DNA of 64,000 nt from Gammaproteobacteria bacterium (GTDB taxonomy: Bacteria > Pseudomonadota > Gammaproteobacteria > Steroidobacterales > Steroidobacteraceae), in contig VGUH01000009.1 in assembly GCA_016874295.1 (NCBI GenBank), positions 1 through 64,000 on the forward strand, in the 5' to 3' direction. Under the pieces are notes generated by a model. It saw only the letters and a list, made by a program, of their open reading frames with translations, searched no databases and was not told where the DNA came from. The translations under genes were made by a program, and so were the position numbers. Position 1 is the stretch's first letter. The number at the start of each line of letters is the position of its first letter. Positions 195-11,406 of this stretch are shown piece by piece.

Positions 195-2048
195 CTAGCG
201 GCCGATTTCAGCCACCAGCGCCGCATTTCGCTCCGCCACCATCCCCTTCTCGGGCGCCTCGACCTGCCCCGCCACCGGCAACCGCTCGCGGACCCAGTCC
301 TGGAATCCGGCGAGCACGATTTCCTTCGACGACAGGATGCCCTGCGTGTAACCGCCCGAGGCGAGGCCGCGCTGCACAGACTCGGTCAGCTGCTCGTCCT
401 CCGCCTGCACGCGACGGTTGAGGCGGGTGCAGAGGTAGCGCGCGGCCTTCATCTCGCGGCGCTCGTCCGGGAATCCGAACGAGCGCCCGCGCAGGAGCGT
501 CCGGCCCGCGCCGAGCGGCAGCACGTGGAAGAAGTCCATCCACTCCGGGTAGATGTCGAAGAAGACATTCGGGTACAGGCCGAAGTAGCTCCAGCGCCGG
601 CGCAGCTCCGCCGGCAGGTGCTCCACGACCGGCAGGAACTTCGCGTAGCGCTCCGCGCTCCAGCTCTTCAGCGGCTGCTCCCGCAGGCGGTGCGAGAGCC
701 GCATTGTCCCGCCCGGGAAACTCTCGCGGTCGTACTCCGCCTCCGTCAGCGCCGAGAGCCCGGGGTGGCCCATCGGGAAGTGGTAGTCCTCGACGTAGTT
801 CTCGATCACGTTCTTCCAGTCGATCGGCAGCTCTTGGGTCCAGGTCTTGCCGAGCGGCACCATCCGGTCGAGCCGGTAATGCGAAAGCTCATCAACGTGC
901 GGCGCCATGCGCTCGGCGACCGAGGGCTCGCCGCCGCGGAAGCGCACGAACAGGAAACCCATGAAGTTCTCGAGCTCGATCGGCTTCAGTCCGTACTGAG
1001 CCCGGTCGAACTTCGGGAAGGTCTCGGAAGCGCTGACGCTGCGGTTGCGGCCGTCGAGGTGATAGGTCCAGCCGTGGTACATGCAGGTCAGGTGTTTCGC
1101 GCAGCGGCCCCGCTCGCCCGAGACGACGGCGTGCGCGCGATGTGCGCAGACATTGTGGAAAGCGCGGATCGCGCCGTCCCTGTCGCGCACGATGAAGCCG
1201 CGGCGGCCGAAGAACTCGAATGTCAGGTAGTCGCCGGTCTCCGGCACTTCGCTCTGGTGGCCGACGATCTGCCAGGACGACAGAAAGATCCGCTCCTTCT
1301 CAAGATCGTGGAATTCCTCGTTGTGATAGATCCAGCCGGGCAATGTCAGCTTGATTGCCGGGTCGGCCAGGGCCGCGGGTTCCGCAAGCCGCGGCCGCAC
1401 GGCTGCGGTCGCCTCGATCCGCGGGGCAAACCACGGAAAAACGCTGCACAGGTAGGCCCGGCACTGGCGGCGCGCGGCTTCACGATCGAATGCGTCGCCT
1501 TCGAAAAGAATCCCCTGCCACTGCTGGTCGATCAGGCCCATCAGGCCCTGGGCGACGGCCTCGGCGTCCGGCCAGGGGGAGTCCTTGCCGCGCGCGGCGA
1601 TGAGCTGCCTGCAGAGGCCTATCACCATCCGGTTCCACGCCGTGTCGCGCTCTCCGCAGATGCGCTGATAGTCGCCTCGCGCCTTGCTCTCGGCGAGGAA
1701 CGAATACCAGACGGCGATCTTGTCCGAACCGGACAACCCCCGGCCCAGGCTCGCATCGACGATGCCGAGGAGCGCGCGCAGCTCATCCCCGCCCGCCTCC
1801 TCCATCACCCGCGCCATCGCGTCCGAGAATTCCTCCGAAACCTCGCGCAGCGTCGCGAGCAGCAGCGCCTCCTTGCTGCCGAAATGGAAATTGATCGAAG
1901 CCGCCGTATGTCCCGCTGCGCCGGCGATCTTCGCGGAGGTCAGCGCCGCGAGACCGTGCTGCGATATGGCGGCGACCGTCGCCTGGATCAACTCGAGCTT
2001 CGAACCGGTGGGACGGACAACGCTGCCAGGCTTGAGATTTGCGGCCAT
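195..2048 (-). CDS. BetI-like TetR regulator fused to Rieske non-heme iron oxygenase (617 aa)
   Basis: One uninterrupted frame encodes two proteins that are normally separate. Residues ~15-63 form a TetR helix-turn-helix (TSAKIAGAAGHTAASINFHF), and ~64-207 match the BetI-type ligand domain, including LIDQQWQGILF. After a linker of ~25 residues, residues ~235-590 form a Rieske oxygenase alpha subunit. The Rieske cluster ligands are C301, H303, C322 and H325. The mononuclear iron site is H423 and H428 in ENYVEDYHFPMGHP with D551, and E420 is the likely bridging acid. The oxygenase half resembles glycine-betaine/carnitine-type monooxygenases, and BetI senses choline, so a quaternary-amine substrate is a reasonable guess, not shown. 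I start at 2048 rather than 2096 because GGAG lies 5 nt upstream. No reductase gene is nearby. The gene is divergent from the hydrolase operon. Confidence 0.85.
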   Translation of the reverse strand: MAANLKPGSVVRPTGSKLELIQATVAAISQHGLAALTSAKIAGAAGHTAASINFHFGSKEALLLATLREVSEEFSDAMARVMEEAGGDELRALLGIVDASLGRGLSGSDKIAVWYSFLAESKARGDYQRICGERDTAWNRMVIGLCRQLIAARGKDSPWPDAEAVAQGLMGLIDQQWQGILFEGDAFDREAARRQCRAYLCSVFPWFAPRIEATAAVRPRLAEPAALADPAIKLTLPGWIYHNEEFHDLEKERIFLSSWQIVGHQSEVPETGDYLTFEFFGRRGFIVRDRDGAIRAFHNVCAHRAHAVVSGERGRCAKHLTCMYHGWTYHLDGRNRSVSASETFPKFDRAQYGLKPIELENFMGFLFVRFRGGEPSVAERMAPHVDELSHYRLDRMVPLGKTWTQELPIDWKNVIENYVEDYHFPMGHPGLSALTEAEYDRESFPGGTMRLSHRLREQPLKSWSAERYAKFLPVVEHLPAELRRRWSYFGLYPNVFFDIYPEWMDFFHVLPLGAGRTLLRGRSFGFPDERREMKAARYLCTRLNRRVQAEDEQLTESVQRGLASGGYTQGILSSKEIVLAGFQDWVRERLPVAGQVEAPEKGMVAERNAALVAEIGR

Positions 2049-2134: not shown

Positions 2135-4201
2135 ATGTCATATAAGACTCTGTTTTTAATGATTTTATCGCTATTACCGGCCGTTGACGCCGGCGCGGCC
2201 GTGGAAAAGCCGGCCACATATGGCATGGAAATCCAGACCGCCTGGATCCCGATGCCGGACGGCGTGCGCCTCTCGGCCGATGTCTACCGGCCGACCGGCG
2301 GGAAAGCAGGCGAACGCTTCCCGGTCCTGCTCGAGTACCTGCCCTACCGCAAGCACGAGGCGCGCAGCCGCAACTGGCCGCTCTATTCCTATTTCGTGCA
2401 ACGTGGTTACGTGGTTGCCGCAGTCGACATCCGCGGCACCGGCAACAGCGAGGGCCTGCTGATTCCCTACGAGTACTCCGACGTCGAACATGCGGACGGC
2501 GACGTCGTCATCGGCTGGCTGGCGAAGCAGGACTGGTCGAACGGCAACGTCGGCATGTTCGGCATCTCCTGGGGCGGCTTCAATTCCATCCAGATGGCGG
2601 CGCGCGACGTGCCCGCGCTCAAGGCGATCATCGCCGTCGACGCCACCGAGGACCTCTACCAGGACGATGTCCATTACATGGACGGGATCATGCACCTCGA
2701 TTCCTGGGAGATGAGCCAGGACCTCGACAACGCGCGGCCCGGCGCGCCGGACTACGTCGTCAACGACGACAACTTCAGGAACCGTTTCGACACGGAGCCG
2801 TGGACGCTCTCGCACAAGCGCCAGCAGCGCGACGGCCCGTACTGGGACCGCGCGTCGCTGCGCGACCGGTACGACACCATCCGCATCCCGACCTTTCACA
2901 TCGGCGGCTGGTACGACGGCTACCGCGACAGCGTCGCGCGCATGCTCGAGCACGTGAAGGGCGCGCCCGTGAAGGCGATGATCGGCGCCTGGCACCACAC
3001 CTGGCCGCACCAGCCCTACCCCGGCCCCGGCATGGAGTGGCGGCACGAGGCCGTGCGCTGGTTCGACCACTGGCTGAAAGGCGAGGACACCGGAATCATG
3101 GACGAGCCGCGCTTCGCGGTGTTCGTGCGCGACTGGCACCCGCCAGGCCCGAGGCTCGACGACGCGCCGGGCCGCTGGCGGTACGAGGACGGCTGGCCGG
3201 TCGCGCGCATCCGCGACCAGGTGCTGTACCCGCAGGACAACCACACGCTCGCAGACGCTCAACCTGCCGCGACCACACATCGCCTGCGCTACCTGCCGTC
3301 GATCGGCTTCGAGGCCGGCGGGCCGGTCATGTGGTGGGGCGACGTCGCGCACGACCAGCGCGGCACGGACGCCTTCAGCCTGGTCTACGACAGCGGGCCG
3401 CTCGAGCAGGACCTCGAGATCCTCGGCTTCCCGCACGCGCTCCTGACGGTGTCTACCGACGCAAAGCGCGCGAACTGGATCGCGCGGCTCTCGGATGTCG
3501 CGCCCGACGGCACGGTCACGCAGGTCGCGGGCGCGGCGATGAACGGCACGCACCGCGAGTCGGCGCGCGCGCCGAAAGACCTCGAGCCCGGCAAGCCCTT
3601 CGAGCTCGACATCGAGATGCACTTCACCTCCTGGGTCTTCCCCAAGGGCCACCGCATCCGGCTCGCGGTCAACAATGCGCAGTGGCCCATGCTCTGGCCG
3701 ACGCCCGAGGCGATGATGACGGAGCTCAGGCTCAGCCCCTCCCGACTGACGATTCCCGTGGTGCCGTTCGAACAGCGGCCGGTACCGGATTTCCTGCCGC
3801 CCGCGAACGACGACCCGGAATTCGCGGGCGTCGAGTCGATCGAGAGCGGCACGGTGTCGGGCTATGGCGAGGTTTCCTCGGTGGACCGCAATCCGCAGAC
3901 CGGAACGGTGGTCGCAAAGCTGACCAATGGCTCCGGCACGCGCTACCCCTGGGGCGAGGAGCGCAGCCTCGAGACCATCCGCTACGAGGTGGACGACGAC
4001 AACCCGGCCGAGGCGCGCATGAACGGCACGCACCGCATGGAGGTGGACCTCCCGGGCCGCAAGCTGCTCTGGGAGGCCGAGCTCGATTTCCGCAGCGACC
4101 GCGAGAATTTCTACTACAGTTACTACCGGCGGCTGACCGAGAATGGCAGGCCGGTGCGCGAAAAGACCTGGAAAGAAACCATACCTAGGGATCACCAATG
4201 A
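2135..4201 (+). CDS. CocE/NonD family hydrolase (S15-type esterase/acylase), exported
   Basis: The 688-aa product starts with a signal peptide (K4, hydrophobic core LFLMILSLLPAV, cleavage near AGAA ~22). The alpha/beta-hydrolase core has RGTGNS (~100) and the nucleophile elbow GISWGG with Ser145. The catalytic Asp is expected in GGWYDGYRDS and the His in GAWHHTWPH. The C-terminal half is the jelly-roll of the X-Pro dipeptidyl-peptidase/cocaine esterase family. It hydrolyses ester or amide bonds; the substrate is unknown. I chose the ATG at 2135 because it gives a proper signal peptide; the longer frame upstream runs into the divergent gene. It overlaps the next gene by 4 nt (ATGA), so the two are coupled. 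Codon use in the first 20 codons is noticeably AT-richer than the rest. Confidence 0.85.
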   Translation: MSYKTLFLMILSLLPAVDAGAAVEKPATYGMEIQTAWIPMPDGVRLSADVYRPTGGKAGERFPVLLEYLPYRKHEARSRNWPLYSYFVQRGYVVAAVDIRGTGNSEGLLIPYEYSDVEHADGDVVIGWLAKQDWSNGNVGMFGISWGGFNSIQMAARDVPALKAIIAVDATEDLYQDDVHYMDGIMHLDSWEMSQDLDNARPGAPDYVVNDDNFRNRFDTEPWTLSHKRQQRDGPYWDRASLRDRYDTIRIPTFHIGGWYDGYRDSVARMLEHVKGAPVKAMIGAWHHTWPHQPYPGPGMEWRHEAVRWFDHWLKGEDTGIMDEPRFAVFVRDWHPPGPRLDDAPGRWRYEDGWPVARIRDQVLYPQDNHTLADAQPAATTHRLRYLPSIGFEAGGPVMWWGDVAHDQRGTDAFSLVYDSGPLEQDLEILGFPHALLTVSTDAKRANWIARLSDVAPDGTVTQVAGAAMNGTHRESARAPKDLEPGKPFELDIEMHFTSWVFPKGHRIRLAVNNAQWPMLWPTPEAMMTELRLSPSRLTIPVVPFEQRPVPDFLPPANDDPEFAGVESIESGTVSGYGEVSSVDRNPQTGTVVAKLTNGSGTRYPWGEERSLETIRYEVDDDNPAEARMNGTHRMEVDLPGRKLLWEAELDFRSDRENFYYSYYRRLTENGRPVREKTWKETIPRDHQ

Positions 4202-5925
4202 CCAAGCACACGATCGCAATTGTCCTGGCCGCTACGGCGCTCGCCGGCTGCGCGCGCGAAGGCAAGGACGCGGGGGACGACAAGAAATCCGCGGTGGCCG
4301 ACCTCGCGCTCAGGAACGGCGCGATCTACACGGTGGACGGCGCCCGGAGCTGGGCGGAGACGGTCGCGATCGACGACGGCCGCATCGTCTACGTCGGCAA
4401 TGACGCCGGCGCGAAAGATTACATCGGTCCGCAGACCCAGGTCATCGACCTCAAGGGCCGCATGGTCCTGCCCGGCATGCAGGACGTGCATATCCACCCG
4501 ATCTCGGGCGGAATCGAGGCGAACGGCTGCGACCTGAACGCGGCGAACACGGTCGATGAATACCTCGCCATCATCAAGAAATACGCCGAAGAAAACCCGA
4601 ACGAGCCCTGGATCAAGGGCGGCGGCTGGTCGATGGCGTCCTTCGGCCCCGGCGCGCTGGCGCGCAAGGAGTTGATCGACGCGATCGTGCCCGATCGCCC
4701 GGTCATCCTCTGGAGCCGCGACGGGCACACGACCTGGGTCAACAGCAAGGCGCTCGAAGTCGCCGGCATCATCAAGGAAACGCCGGACCCGGAGGACGGC
4801 CGCATCGACCGCGACCCGAAGACCGGCGAGCCGTCGGGCAGCCTGCAAGAGGGCGCGAGCAGCCTCGTCTCCAGCAAGGCGCCGTCCGACACAGACCAGG
4901 TGCGCGATGACGGCCTGCGGTATGCGGTCAAGATGCTGAACGGCTACGGCATCACCGGCATCCAGGTCGCCTCGGCCGACGAGGCGGACCTCAAGACCTA
5001 CCGGCGCCTCGACGACGCCGGCGAGCTCTCGCTGCATGTCGTCGCCTCGATCTGGTGGGATCGCGACGAGGGACTGGAGCAGGTCGAGGACATCAAGCGG
5101 CTGCGCAGCGGCTACACGAAAGGCCGCGTGGATGCGGGCACCGTCAAGATCATGCAGGACGGCGTGATGGAGAATTACACCGCCGTCGTGCTCGAACCGT
5201 ACAAGCTGAAGGGCAAGAAGGACGTGCGCGGCATCCCGATGGTCGAGCCAGAGCTGCTCAAGCAGGTTGTCACGCAGCTCGACGCGGACGGCTTCCAGGT
5301 GCACTTCCACGCGATCGGCGACGGCGCGGTGCGCCAGGCGCTGGACGCGGTCGCCGCGGCGCGCGGCGCGAACGGCGATCTCGACCATCGCCACCACATC
5401 TCCCACATCCAGCTGATCCACCCGGCCGACCAGCCGCGCTTCCGCCAGCTCGGCGTGGTCGCCAACTTCCAGCCGCTGTGGGCCTACGCGGACGAATACA
5501 TCAACGACCTGACGCTGCCCTTCATCAGCAAGGAAACCGCCGCCTACATGTACCCGATCGGCAGCATGCAGCGGAGCGGCGCGGTGGTCGCCTTCGGCAG
5601 CGACTGGTCGGTCTCGACCGCCAACCCGTTCGAGGAGATGGAGACCGCGATCACGCGCATGGACGCGCTCAACGACGCCACGAAGCCGTGGATGCCTGAG
5701 GAGCGCATCGGCCTGCACGAGTCGCTCGCGGCCTTCACCATCAACGCGGCCTACACGAATCACGACGAGAAGAACACCGGTTCGCTCGAGGTGGGCAAGC
5801 TGGCGAACCTCGCGGTGCTCGACCGCAACCTGTTCGAGATCCCGGCCACGCAGATCTCGGATACGAAGGTGCTGCTGACGCTGTTCGAGGGCAAACCGGT
5901 GCACGGCGACCCGGCCGGGCTCTGA
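4198..5925 (+). CDS. YtcJ-like amidohydrolase (metal-dependent, family 3), lipoprotein
   Basis: The 575-aa protein has a lipoprotein signal with lipobox LAGC (Cys18), so it should be membrane-anchored outside the cytoplasm. The core is an amidohydrolase/urease-superfamily TIM barrel: the small beta-domain strand LRNGAIYTVD (~38-47), the metal-binding HxH in DVHIHP (H98, H100), later barrel histidines in VHFHAIGDGAV and HRHHISHIQ, and the catalytic Asp in FGSDWSVST. YtcJ/AepA-type enzymes hydrolyse N-substituted amides or formamides; the substrate here is unknown. It starts within the stop of the CocE gene and ends 5 nt before the next amidohydrolase, so all three are almost certainly one operon. 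Confidence 0.85.
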   Translation: MTKHTIAIVLAATALAGCAREGKDAGDDKKSAVADLALRNGAIYTVDGARSWAETVAIDDGRIVYVGNDAGAKDYIGPQTQVIDLKGRMVLPGMQDVHIHPISGGIEANGCDLNAANTVDEYLAIIKKYAEENPNEPWIKGGGWSMASFGPGALARKELIDAIVPDRPVILWSRDGHTTWVNSKALEVAGIIKETPDPEDGRIDRDPKTGEPSGSLQEGASSLVSSKAPSDTDQVRDDGLRYAVKMLNGYGITGIQVASADEADLKTYRRLDDAGELSLHVVASIWWDRDEGLEQVEDIKRLRSGYTKGRVDAGTVKIMQDGVMENYTAVVLEPYKLKGKKDVRGIPMVEPELLKQVVTQLDADGFQVHFHAIGDGAVRQALDAVAAARGANGDLDHRHHISHIQLIHPADQPRFRQLGVVANFQPLWAYADEYINDLTLPFISKETAAYMYPIGSMQRSGAVVAFGSDWSVSTANPFEEMETAITRMDALNDATKPWMPEERIGLHESLAAFTINAAYTNHDEKNTGSLEVGKLANLAVLDRNLFEIPATQISDTKVLLTLFEGKPVHGDPAGL

Positions 5926-8017: not shown

Positions 8018-9684
8018 ATCTTCCCGAGATCCACGTCGGCGTTCGCCCAGGCCTTCGCAAAGCGCTCGGCGACTTCCTTCGATTCCTGCGTCTTTCCCTG
8101 CTTCTTCAAGGCGCGGGCGAGACCGTGCAGTGACCACCCGTTCTCGGGATTGCGCTTCAGCTCGTCGCGAAATACCTGCTCGGCGTCAGCGGCCTTGCCC
8201 GCGTCGAGCAGCACGTTGCCGAGGGCCTGGCGCGCCGGCCAGTTCCAGCCGGGCGGCTCGTCGTAGGGCAGCGTGTCCTCGACGGTCATCGCGGTGTTCA
8301 GGGCCGCGATCGCGTCGTCGTAGCGCTTTTCCGCGCGCGCGATCTCCGCGGCGACGAAGCGCTCCGCGACCTGCACGCCGCCGATCAGCGAGTAGCGGTC
8401 CCAAGCCAGCATCTTCTCGATCACCGGGTCCTTGGCCGCCGGCTCGAGTGCGGCGTGGAACTGCTTCGCGTCGTCGAGACGCCCCTGGCCCACGGCCGCT
8501 ATCGCCTGGCCGTAGTTCCACATCGCCTGCATGTACGGCAGGTCGTCGGCCGGCTTCGGCATCGCCACGACGTTGTCCCAGCGGCCGAAGCGGACCGCGG
8601 CGAACAGCAGCGTCAGCGAGAAGTTCTGCATCGCCTCGAAACCCGGCGTGCGCATGAGCTGCGGGTCGCTGGTCCGCTCGCCGGTATGCGCCGCGGCGGC
8701 GCGCGCGATTTCTCCCGCGCCCTCCATCGTCGCCGCGAACCAGAGGAAATGGTGGTTGTGCGGCACGTAGCCGAGCGGGTAGACCCCCGGGCCCGGCTTG
8801 CAGATGGCGAGATAGCTGTCGTCGGCGACGATCGCCTTCTGGTTCGCCACGACGGCGTCGTGCCAGCGGCCGACGCGCGCGTAGATGTGCGCCGGCATGT
8901 GCACCAGGTGGCCGGAACCGGGCAGCAGCTCGCGCAACGTGTCCGCCGCCGCGACGCCCTTGGAAGGATCCGGCGAGGCCTCGACCGCGTGCACGTAGAG
9001 GTGCAGCGCCCCGGCATGCTCGGGGTCGCGTGCGATCACGGACTCGAGCGTGGAGACGACCTCGGCCGTGTGACCGTTCGGCTGCCCGGACGCGTCCCAG
9101 TAGTCCCAGGGCTGCAGGTTCATCATGGACTCGGCGAACAGCGACTGTGCGTCGAGGTCTTCCGGGTATTGGGCGACGAGCTCGCGCATGGCCGCGACGT
9201 AGGCCTCGTCGAGCGGTCGCCGGTTCTCCGGCGGGTTCTCGGCGTAGCGGGCCGCCAGCGCCTGGATGAAGGCCTTTTCCTTGTCCGTCGCGTCGGAGGC
9301 CGCGCGCTGGGCCCGCTGCAGCCGGTCCCAGGCTTTCGGGTTATTCGCCGGTTCCATGCCGGCGTTCACGTGCGGGCCGAGCACGAGCGCGGCGCCCCAC
9401 CAGCACATCGCGCAGTCCGGGTCGAGCTCCGCGGCCTTGAGGTAGGAGCGCTCCGCTGCGTCGTGATTGAAGCCGTAGGTCATCGCGAGCCCCTAGTCGA
9501 ACCAGCGCTGCACGTCGGCGTTCTTCGCCGTCACGGGCATGCTGTAGTCGCCGAGGCCCTCGATCAGGTTGGTGCCGACGGGCGCGAGCTCGGGCAGGGG
9601 CGGCTCCGCGGTGCGCCTGTAGAGATAGAGACCGGCGGCCACGACGACGATGGCGACCACCGCCACCCACAGGTTGCGATTCAT
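8014..9684 (-). pseudogene. Membrane-anchored TPR protein interrupted by an in-frame amber codon
   Basis: The full frame of 556 codons starts at an ATG (9684) with a strong GGGGAGG ribosome site. It encodes an N-terminal membrane anchor (VAVVAIVVVAAGLYLY) and VTAKNADVQRWFD, then TAG at 9493-9495. Reading continues in the same frame with GLAMTYGFNHDAAERSYLKA and the rest of a tetratricopeptide protein (~490 aa, including MPAHIYARVGRWHDA). Related proteins typically have Q at the TAG position (WFDQGL), so CAG to TAG is the simplest explanation. Without readthrough only a 63-residue peptide is made, unless translation restarts at the ATG at 9483, 10 nt further on. Function of this TPR family is unknown. 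A sequencing error is equally possible. Confidence 0.8.
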
Positions 9685-9777
9685 GCTGCCTCCCCCCGGA
9701 TTTACGAAGGGCTTCGGGATACTCCCATTTGCCGGAAAATTCAACCGGGCCCTAGAATCGCCGCAGAAGGAGTCCGC

Positions 9778-11406
9778 ATGACAATTCTCCACGCTCTGGG
9801 CCGGTTGGCGCCGGCGCTGGTGGCACTCGTGCTCGCGGGGCCCGCGGAGGCCGCCGAGGCGCCCGCACCCTCCGGTTACGACACCCTCGTGAATCTGTTC
9901 GCCGAATGGCGCGCCTTCGAGCGGCCGCCGCTGCGCGACGGCGCGCCGGATTACACGGCTGCGACCTTCGCGCGCCGGCACGCGGAACTTCCCGCCTGGC
10001 AGGCGCGACTCGCCGCCATCGACACGACAGGGTGGCCGGTCGCGGCACGCGTGGACCACCGACTGGTCGCGGCCGAGATGAACGGTTTCGACTTCTACGT
10101 GCGCGTATTGAAGCCCTGGGAGCGCGACCCGGCCTTCTACCAGACGATCTGGGACGAGCAGAGCGACACACCGGCGCACGAGGGCCCCGAGCACCACGCG
10201 ATCATCGACGTCTGGATGTATTCGTTCCCGCTCTCGCGGGCGGACGAGGCGAAGCTCGCCGCCGCGCTCGCCATCATCCCGCCGCTCAACGCGCAGGCGC
10301 GCCTGAACCTGACCGGCAACGCGCGCGACCTCTGGGTCACCGGCGCGGGCACGATCAGGAAGCAGATCGATTCGCTGGACGGGCTCGCGAAACGCATCGA
10401 GGGCAGCGGCCGGGCGCTCAAGCGGGCAATCGCCGCGGCCCGCGAATCGACCGTGCAGTTCGTCGAATGGCTGGACGCCGAAGCGCCGAGGAAGAACGGC
10501 CCGTCCGGCATCAGCCGCGAGAACTACAGCTGGGCGCTGCAGAACGTCCACCTCGTGCCGATGACCTGGGAGCAGGAAGTCGAACTGCTGCGCCGCGAGC
10601 TCGCGAGAACCCACGCCTCCTTGAAGGCGGAAGAGGAGCGCAACCGCGGCCTGTCGGAGATGCCGGTCATCCAGACGCCCGAGGAGTACGACCGCCGCGC
10701 CAACGAGGCGGTGACGCGCTTCCTCGACTTCCTGCGCGAACGCAAGCTCTACCCGATGCGCGACAGCATGGACCCGGCGCTGCGGGCGCAGCTCGGCAGC
10801 TACGTGCCGATCGAGACGCGCAATTTCTTCGCGATCGCGACGCACTACGAGCCGCTCGTGCTGTACACCCACTTCTACCACTGGTGGGACCTCGCGCGCA
10901 TGCGCGACGAGCTGCACCCGAGTCCGATCCGGCGCGAAGCGCTGCTCTACAACATCTGGGACAGCCGTGCCGAGGGCATGGCGACCGCGATGGAGGAGCT
11001 GATGCTGAACGCCGGGCTGTTCGACGACCAGCCGCGTGCACGCGAGGTGGTCTGGATCATGCTCGCACAGCGCGCCGCCCGTGGCCTAGCGTCGCTGCTC
11101 GCGCATGACAACCAGTTCGACATCGCGAAAGCCAAGGCCTTCCAAGTCGAGTGGACGCCGCGCGGCTGGATGAGCCCGCACCTTGACCTGCTCGGCTTTG
11201 AGCAGCAACTCTACCTGCGCCAGCCCGGCTACGGCACCAGCTACGTGACCGGCAAGCACCTGCTCGACGAGCTGATCCGCATCCGCGCCCACCAGCTCGG
11301 GCCGGATTTCTCGCTGTACCGGTTCTTCGACGAGGTGAACGGAGCCGGTATGATCCCGATGTCCATGATCCACTGGCAGCTCACCGGGCAGGAGACCCTG
11401 CAATGA
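9778..11406 (+). CDS. DUF885 family protein, exported
   Basis: The 542-aa product has a signal peptide (LAPALVALVLAGPAEA, cleavage ~26). A mostly helical body has the histidine/acid-rich stretches typical of DUF885 (HEGPEHHAIIDVW, THFYHWWDL). DUF885 proteins are widespread in Proteobacteria and Actinobacteria; some are suspected hydrolases but no activity is firmly established, so I give none. The start is well supported: AGAAGGAG lies 5 nt before the ATG at 9778. It is divergent from the TPR gene across 93 bp and overlaps the next amidohydrolase by 4 nt (ATGA), so these two genes are translationally coupled. Confidence 0.85.
   Translation: MTILHALGRLAPALVALVLAGPAEAAEAPAPSGYDTLVNLFAEWRAFERPPLRDGAPDYTAATFARRHAELPAWQARLAAIDTTGWPVAARVDHRLVAAEMNGFDFYVRVLKPWERDPAFYQTIWDEQSDTPAHEGPEHHAIIDVWMYSFPLSRADEAKLAAALAIIPPLNAQARLNLTGNARDLWVTGAGTIRKQIDSLDGLAKRIEGSGRALKRAIAAARESTVQFVEWLDAEAPRKNGPSGISRENYSWALQNVHLVPMTWEQEVELLRRELARTHASLKAEEERNRGLSEMPVIQTPEEYDRRANEAVTRFLDFLRERKLYPMRDSMDPALRAQLGSYVPIETRNFFAIATHYEPLVLYTHFYHWWDLARMRDELHPSPIRREALLYNIWDSRAEGMATAMEELMLNAGLFDDQPRAREVVWIMLAQRAARGLASLLAHDNQFDIAKAKAFQVEWTPRGWMSPHLDLLGFEQQLYLRQPGYGTSYVTGKHLLDELIRIRAHQLGPDFSLYRFFDEVNGAGMIPMSMIHWQLTGQETLQ

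Follow-up and report, generated by a model that had tools for sequence, protein, structure and literature searches.

The window analysed here is a stretch of 64,000 nucleotides, and close to its left end a reverse-strand frame (195-2048) joins a TetR-type regulator to a Rieske oxygenase. This raises the question of whether both are really encoded by one gene and, if so, whether the product works as a regulator, as an enzyme, or as both. The gene was defined by its open frame, its Pfam matches, its homologues and their alignment; it encodes 617 aa, and no stop codon was found between 195 and 2048. We infer that translation starts at the ATG at 2048, and the frame is open further upstream, to a GTG at 2096. 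Along the protein, all on the reverse strand, a TetR_N helix-turn-helix (residues 20-65, 1854-1991; 40.5 bits, cut-off 24) is followed by the BetI-type ligand/dimer domain TetR_C_6 (residues 92-203, 1440-1775; 51.5 bits, cut-off 27), an inter-domain linker (residues 217-230, 1359-1400), the Rieske [2Fe-2S] domain (residues 258-347, 1008-1277; 65.3 bits, cut-off 20.3) and the catalytic domain Ring_hydroxyl_A (residues 400-590, 279-851; 131.1 bits, cut-off 24.9). The cluster ligands are C301, H303, C322 and H325, in the pattern C-x-H...C-x2-H, and those of the catalytic domain are H423, H428 and D551; E420 is the bridging acid, and all seven metal ligands were invariant across a 21-sequence alignment. 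The first-pass annotation had proposed a regulator and an oxygenase within one polypeptide as well as a complete ligand set, and both proposals were borne out: four Pfam domains lie in order in the 617-aa frame, and the ligands are found exactly at the residues that had been named. When the protein was modelled as a single chain (mean pLDDT 76, pTM 0.60, 21 sequences in the alignment), the N-terminal half was helical, a stretch of low confidence came next (residues 217-230, pLDDT under 50), and then a Rieske oxygenase fold. The other strand also has an overlapping open frame of 701 aa (15-2120), which is presumably a by-product of high GC.

The gene lies at the very start of a draft-genome contig that begins with a transposase end (rve_3, 1-99), and the trivial explanation would be an assembly or sequencing error that merged two adjacent genes. 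This explanation was refuted by the recurrence of open full-length fusions and has next to no probability left: homologues were found in five other genomes at 63-75% identity and in four at 41-54%, and the fusion is therefore no artefact. Of the two refuting conditions that the first-pass annotation had set, neither held as far as homologues can tell: the linker, where a stop or frameshift would have spoken against the fusion, is open in these nine relatives as well, and close relatives do carry the fusion. In total, the full-length fusion (hereafter class A) was found in 10 genomes from five families, including the genome of the window (G000). Five of them belong to its own family (G000, G001, G004, G006 and G014), G286 to a second one, and G737 with G1141, G517 and G610 to three further families; at least four of the fused genomes are metagenome assemblies. 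Identity to the window protein was 72-75% within the genus, 66% in G014, 63-64% in G286, 52-54% in G737, G1141 and G517, and 41% in G610. The seven ligands and E420 are present in all nine aligned fused proteins, and in the tenth, from G1141, the ligand motifs were located by pattern search outside the alignment. The fusion was found in 5/98 relatives, 6/396 genomes of the order and 4/369 of the class, in 2/4 genomes of the order of G737, 1/1 of that of G517 and 1/2 of that of G610, in overlapping genome sets, each with the own or the centre genome among its members. In the phylum sample it was found in the own genome alone (1/398), and the matches in the other 21 genomes spanned the oxygenase half only. 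Within the own genus, 4/7 genomes carry it and it was not found in the other three, several of the seven being incomplete.

In order to place the two halves among known proteins, each was compared with characterized families. The regulator half had been likened to BetI, and this held for its type: it carries the BetI-type domain TetR_C_6. As BetI proper it was rejected, with 85.9 bits against a cut-off of 201.3 (TIGR03384) and 74.4 against 118 (NF001978), so that, judged from its sequence, this half is of BetI type, yet other than BetI. The oxygenase half had been compared with betaine and carnitine oxygenases; identity with the glycine betaine monooxygenase GbcA was rejected (151.3 bits, equivalog cut-off 670), and among solved structures CntA is the nearest, by sequence (E 1.5e-41) and by model. 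With Foldseek the first 13 hits were CntA chains, and other Rieske oxygenases, including stachydrine demethylase, came after them. CntA (group Va; PDB 6y8j, 6y9d) shares with the fusion the fold, the cluster and iron ligands, the bridging Glu and the pi-cation Tyr, whereas it is a 391-aa chain without a TetR half and is only about 24-26% identical to the fusion. According to PMC7948474, Y203 of CntA holds the quaternary ammonium by a pi-cation interaction, an aromatic side chain at this position is the mark of group Va, and the transfer of electrons from one subunit of the alpha3 trimer to another depends on E205. The fusion aligns Y418 with Y203 and E420 with E205, and it thus has the aromatic residue of group Va; position 418 is Tyr in 5/5 class A tails and in 55/57 free oxygenases. 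Cys206 and Cys209, which PMC10952381 describes as required for full activity of CntA, are replaced by Asp and Phe in the fusion, and the chemistry or the substrate may therefore differ from those of CntA. From this similarity, at 24-26% identity, the substrate is probably a quaternary or N-methylated amine. G737 and G517 each encode a second, free oxygenase after the fusion and in the same direction (L259:8114-9421 and L260:10664-12061), and there the fusion and the free enzyme may work together or share a trimer.

The neighbourhood of the gene also points to an amine substrate. Upstream of the fusion, and divergent from it, an S15-family alpha/beta hydrolase is encoded on the forward strand (2135-4201, start codon inferred; PF02129, PF08530); this arrangement is shared by G000, G001, G004 and G006, so that the fusion recurs in separate genomes with a common neighbour, as the first-pass annotation had asked. 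The hydrolase is followed by an Amidohydro_3 amidohydrolase (4198-5925, forward strand; Pfam), which is the next gene in G001 too. In G001 the fusion lies tail to tail with a run of amine-catabolic genes, which encode a class III aminotransferase, two FAD amine-oxidase-like proteins, a GCV_T protein, an ADP-forming acyl-CoA ligase, an aldehyde dehydrogenase, an enoyl-CoA hydratase and a glutamine-synthetase-like enzyme. The genes divergent from this run encode a second TetR, unfused and of BetI type, as well as an acyl-CoA dehydrogenase and an ABC importer. By BLAST, the aminotransferase, the two FAD proteins, the acyl-CoA ligase, the aldehyde dehydrogenase and the glutamine-synthetase-like gene face the fusion in G286 in the same order as in G001. 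The genes that face the fusion in G517 and G737, with other frames in between, are those for the acyl-CoA ligase, the aldehyde dehydrogenase, the hydratase and the glutamine-synthetase-like enzyme; in G610 they are ABC importer genes. In the own genome the amine gene run is on a separate contig, C3, whose end (L249:17600-17997) looks, on visual reading, like the beginning of a transposase gene. A contig break at an insertion sequence between the fusion and the amine run is likely, and this element may have broken either the assembly or the locus itself. Further into the window, a reverse-strand frame of 474 aa (9493-10917) beside a TPR protein had no Pfam match at 1e-6 and may be no gene.

If the TetR half binds DNA, its sites should be sought next to the gene, and 2049-2134 had been singled out as the region where a repressor would bind. 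Pattern matches placed a -10 box, TAGAAT, at 2075-2080 and a -35 box, TTGAGT, at 2099-2104, both on the reverse strand; among six aligned class A loci the -10 box was exact in four and one letter off in two, and the -35 box was invariant in all six. Within the same region, conserved tandem inverted repeats were found that form two predicted operator boxes: box 1, TNAAYNNNNRTTNA (2101-2114), overlaps the -35 box, and box 2 (2121-2134), with the same TNAAYNNNNRTTNA motif, lies 20 bp from it. This pair of inverted repeats, exactly 20 bp apart over the -35 box of the fusion, is a finding new to this analysis. The 64-kb window contained no further full box, and no tandem box appeared in 20 shuffled windows (single bases, 500-base blocks). 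The tandem scored 16/16 in G000, G001, G014, G286, G737 and G1141 and 15/16 in G004 and G610, which places the pair at 8/10 fused genes; it was absent from the fusion promoter in two, G006 with one full box and G517 with none, where a different palindrome was seen by eye upstream of the fusion. The six loci studied first served to define the motif, and in the later tests (G737, G517, G610 and G1141) it was found in 3/4. The promoter from which the genes for the second TetR and the aminotransferase diverge also bears a single full box, in 5/5 loci (G000, G001, G006, G014 and G286); in G014 it sits at the called starts of both genes, which may be too long. Extra full boxes were detected at L238:16727 and L098:13258. 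The second, unfused TetR, which is 36% identical, could be the user of the box, at least at the pathway promoter.

We then compared the selection that acts on the two halves. Five class A genes were compared in all 10 pairs, which gave dN/dS of 0.12-0.26 for the TetR half and 0.11-0.28 for the oxygenase half, figures that are rough because most dS values are near 1; in seven pairs of free oxygenases it was 0.08-0.23 in six, and the seventh was saturated. Both halves of the fusion are under similar purifying selection. These values bear on the proposal that the protein is simply an oxygenase whose TetR half has become a structural passenger. DNA binding by that half is a prediction, and the pathway has its own unfused TetR, as this proposal would have it; however, the TetR_N match is above the cut-off, the TetR dN/dS is that of a constrained domain, and the tandem box is conserved on the -35 of the fusion in 8/10 loci, which makes a mere passenger improbable.

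The opposite proposal is that the protein is only a regulator, in which the oxygenase half senses a ligand or the redox state and has no relevant turnover. An NAD_binding_1 reductase was encoded on the contig of the fusion in 0/9 genomes, which is consistent with this proposal; the reductase was on another contig in six, and was not found in the other three (G006, which is 77% complete, G014 and G286). A further argument for it comes from a sister lineage with a decayed oxygenase tail. In the own family, a second protein kind was matched in 74/217 genomes (E of 1e-35 or below), of which four belong to class A; the remaining 70 are referred to as class B (for example L106:10850-12628). Their tails are at least 120 aa long in 54/70 loci and shorter in 16, some of the short ones being cut by contig ends or a stop. 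Among the 53 tails of at least 200 aa, both iron histidines were lost in all 53 and H303 in 46, and the iron Asp was retained in 10; of the cluster ligands, C301 was kept in 52/53, C322 in 52/53 and H325 in 53/53. In addition, H306 was retained in 98% of the tails, and position 418 is Trp in 43/53. These counts were obtained from one automatic alignment of tails that average 35% identity. Although the iron site is gone, the class B tail is still constrained, weakly but genuinely (dN/dS 0.16-0.52 in 13 pairs; 0.05-0.16 for TetR in 12 pairs, one saturated), and class B seems to be a regulator of the kind proposed. In class A, on the other hand, every ligand and E420 are kept in 9/9 aligned proteins, and the oxygenase half has the same dN/dS as the TetR half, at a level (0.11-0.28) near the 0.08-0.23 of six pairs of free oxygenases. 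Furthermore, the other oxygenase-like matches in the own genome share just 27-37% identity with the fusion, and hence no second copy of its oxygenase subfamily was seen there. We therefore regard a pure regulator as unlikely for class A, albeit as a contender to be taken seriously.

A related possibility, which we hold to be tentative though less doubtful than a pure regulator, is that the occupancy or the redox state of the Rieske or iron centre gates the TetR half, and that class B evolved into a Rieske-derived regulator. The class B part of this idea refers to the retention of C301, C322, H325 and the nearby H306, with mostly Trp at 418 and without the iron site, and from class B one would expect a DNA-binding protein with an unusual Rieske-derived site of three ligands. 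Class B can be compared with Fe-S regulators such as RsrR, a transcription factor whose [2Fe-2S] CD spectra resemble those of Rieske clusters (PMC5015018); RsrR belongs to the Rrf2 family, whereas class B is a TetR protein with a putative cluster. A free oxygenase with full ligands was found in the same fetched stretch at 43/54 class B fused loci, and since the other 11 stretches span 3 to 17 kb, some class B loci are genuinely without such an enzyme nearby. The TetR tree has the short forms nested between fused ones, which speaks for repeated tail loss. No class A box was found within 350 bp upstream of class B genes (0/70, with 0.37 expected by chance against a background of 14 full boxes over the 936 kb that the class B loci span), and thus there is no sign that class B uses it. 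The commonest inverted repeats upstream of class B genes gave no pointer to its operators, because by position and sequence they seem to lie inside a divergent permease gene. A small HD-domain protein (L106:14394-14972) recurs beside class B genes and beside the class A gene of G014.

The origin of the fusion was approached through an unfused relative and through phylogenies. On contig C34 of G014 (L098:8049-9925), a tetR gene and an oxygenase gene run in one direction and overlap by 4 bases (ATGA), with a single box upstream of tetR. This pair and the fusion share the protein kinds, their order and the box upstream of tetR, but the former consists of two separate genes and the latter of a single one. 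The overlapping pair resembles a pre-fusion state, and a later split is also possible. It could also be taken to suggest that the fused gene still delivers two proteins, by cleavage of the linker or from an internal start, and the low confidence of residues 217-230 in the model would fit this. Separate products would not require a fusion, however, and the fused frame was kept in 10 genomes of five families, so that we consider two products quite improbable, even more so than a passenger TetR half. As to the relationship of classes A and B, the first oxygenase tree, which contained 27/53 class B tails and 22/53 adjacent free enzymes, hand-picked for spread, placed class B outside class A and the free enzymes, and a test of that tree left A and B as one clade acceptable (p 0.36). 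In a second tree, G517 and G737 were added, whereas G610 and a set of long-branched rows, five from class B and two from the outgroup, were left out, this set having been chosen after the first tree was seen; here A and B formed one clade (97/94). A repeat with G610 included and one more long class B row removed agreed. In the TetR-domain tree, from which three cut or odd rows were omitted, A and B were neighbours (93/52); the free TetR of L098 could be joined to A or to B alone (p 0.61 and 0.82), and it fell inside A+B in a later TetR tree. The support labels of the repeat oxygenase tree and of the later TetR tree were partly read after re-rooting and may be shifted. H306, which is shared by A and B and is mostly Ala in free enzymes, was discarded as a mark of common descent, as it also occurs in CntA; E416 and S557 weakly suggest such descent, and G610 is without both. 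Hence, the trees favour a single origin of A and B without proving it.

Taken together, at the level of sequence a regulator and a CntA-like oxygenase with full ligands form one conserved polypeptide, and its gene has a conserved tandem inverted repeat over the -35 box. We favour, somewhat above even chances, that class A is an autoregulated trigger enzyme, with DNA binding and catalysis both predicted; the first-pass annotation had raised this role, and its interpretation is supported in part. Its anatomy fits: both domains are complete, and operator-like sites lie at its own promoter. In the model that we propose, a TetR dimer, or a pair of dimers on the two boxes, would repress the gene of the fusion itself and likewise the divergent hydrolase, and perhaps also the linked amine-catabolic operon, whose main promoter bears a single box. 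The substrate or its product would fill the TetR pocket or the oxygenase site, upon which the fusion would come off the DNA and act as an oxygenase, supplied with electrons by an unlinked donor. In class B, with a separate oxygenase usually alongside, the fused copy would have decayed to a tail with a regulatory role, which later disappeared on several occasions. If the sensor-oxygenase model is true, one chain senses, degrades and derepresses. The unfused pair, the fusion and class B are likely stages, present in living genomes, of a path from operon to fusion to pseudoenzyme regulator, and this system makes it testable whether the active site of an enzyme can turn into a sensor.

The known systems closest to this one resemble it either in parts or in logic. 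BetI, the choline-responsive repressor, shares TetR_N and a BetI-type C-terminal domain with the fusion, but it is without the 400-aa oxygenase that the fusion carries, and the fusion scores below its cut-off. Few enzymes are known to repress their own genes; PutA, with a ribbon-helix-helix domain and proline/P5C dehydrogenase domains, is one of them. The DNA-binding and enzyme domains of PutA are unrelated to those of the fusion, and membership of the PutA family was rejected, the four Pfam families of the fusion being different from those of PutA. Among the papers listed for such fusions, from a literature outside of which most subscription journals lie, none describes a TetR-Rieske or BetI-Rieske protein in its title or opening abstract. 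PutA and BirA are described as moonlighting proteins in PMC6978683, where 'trigger enzymes' appear in the reference list, and both are like the fusion in logic, namely an enzyme that represses its own operon, with autorepression predicted in the case of the fusion. To this logic the locus would add a TetR-oxygenase example of a self-repressing enzyme, with a predicted operator and a natural unfused relative.
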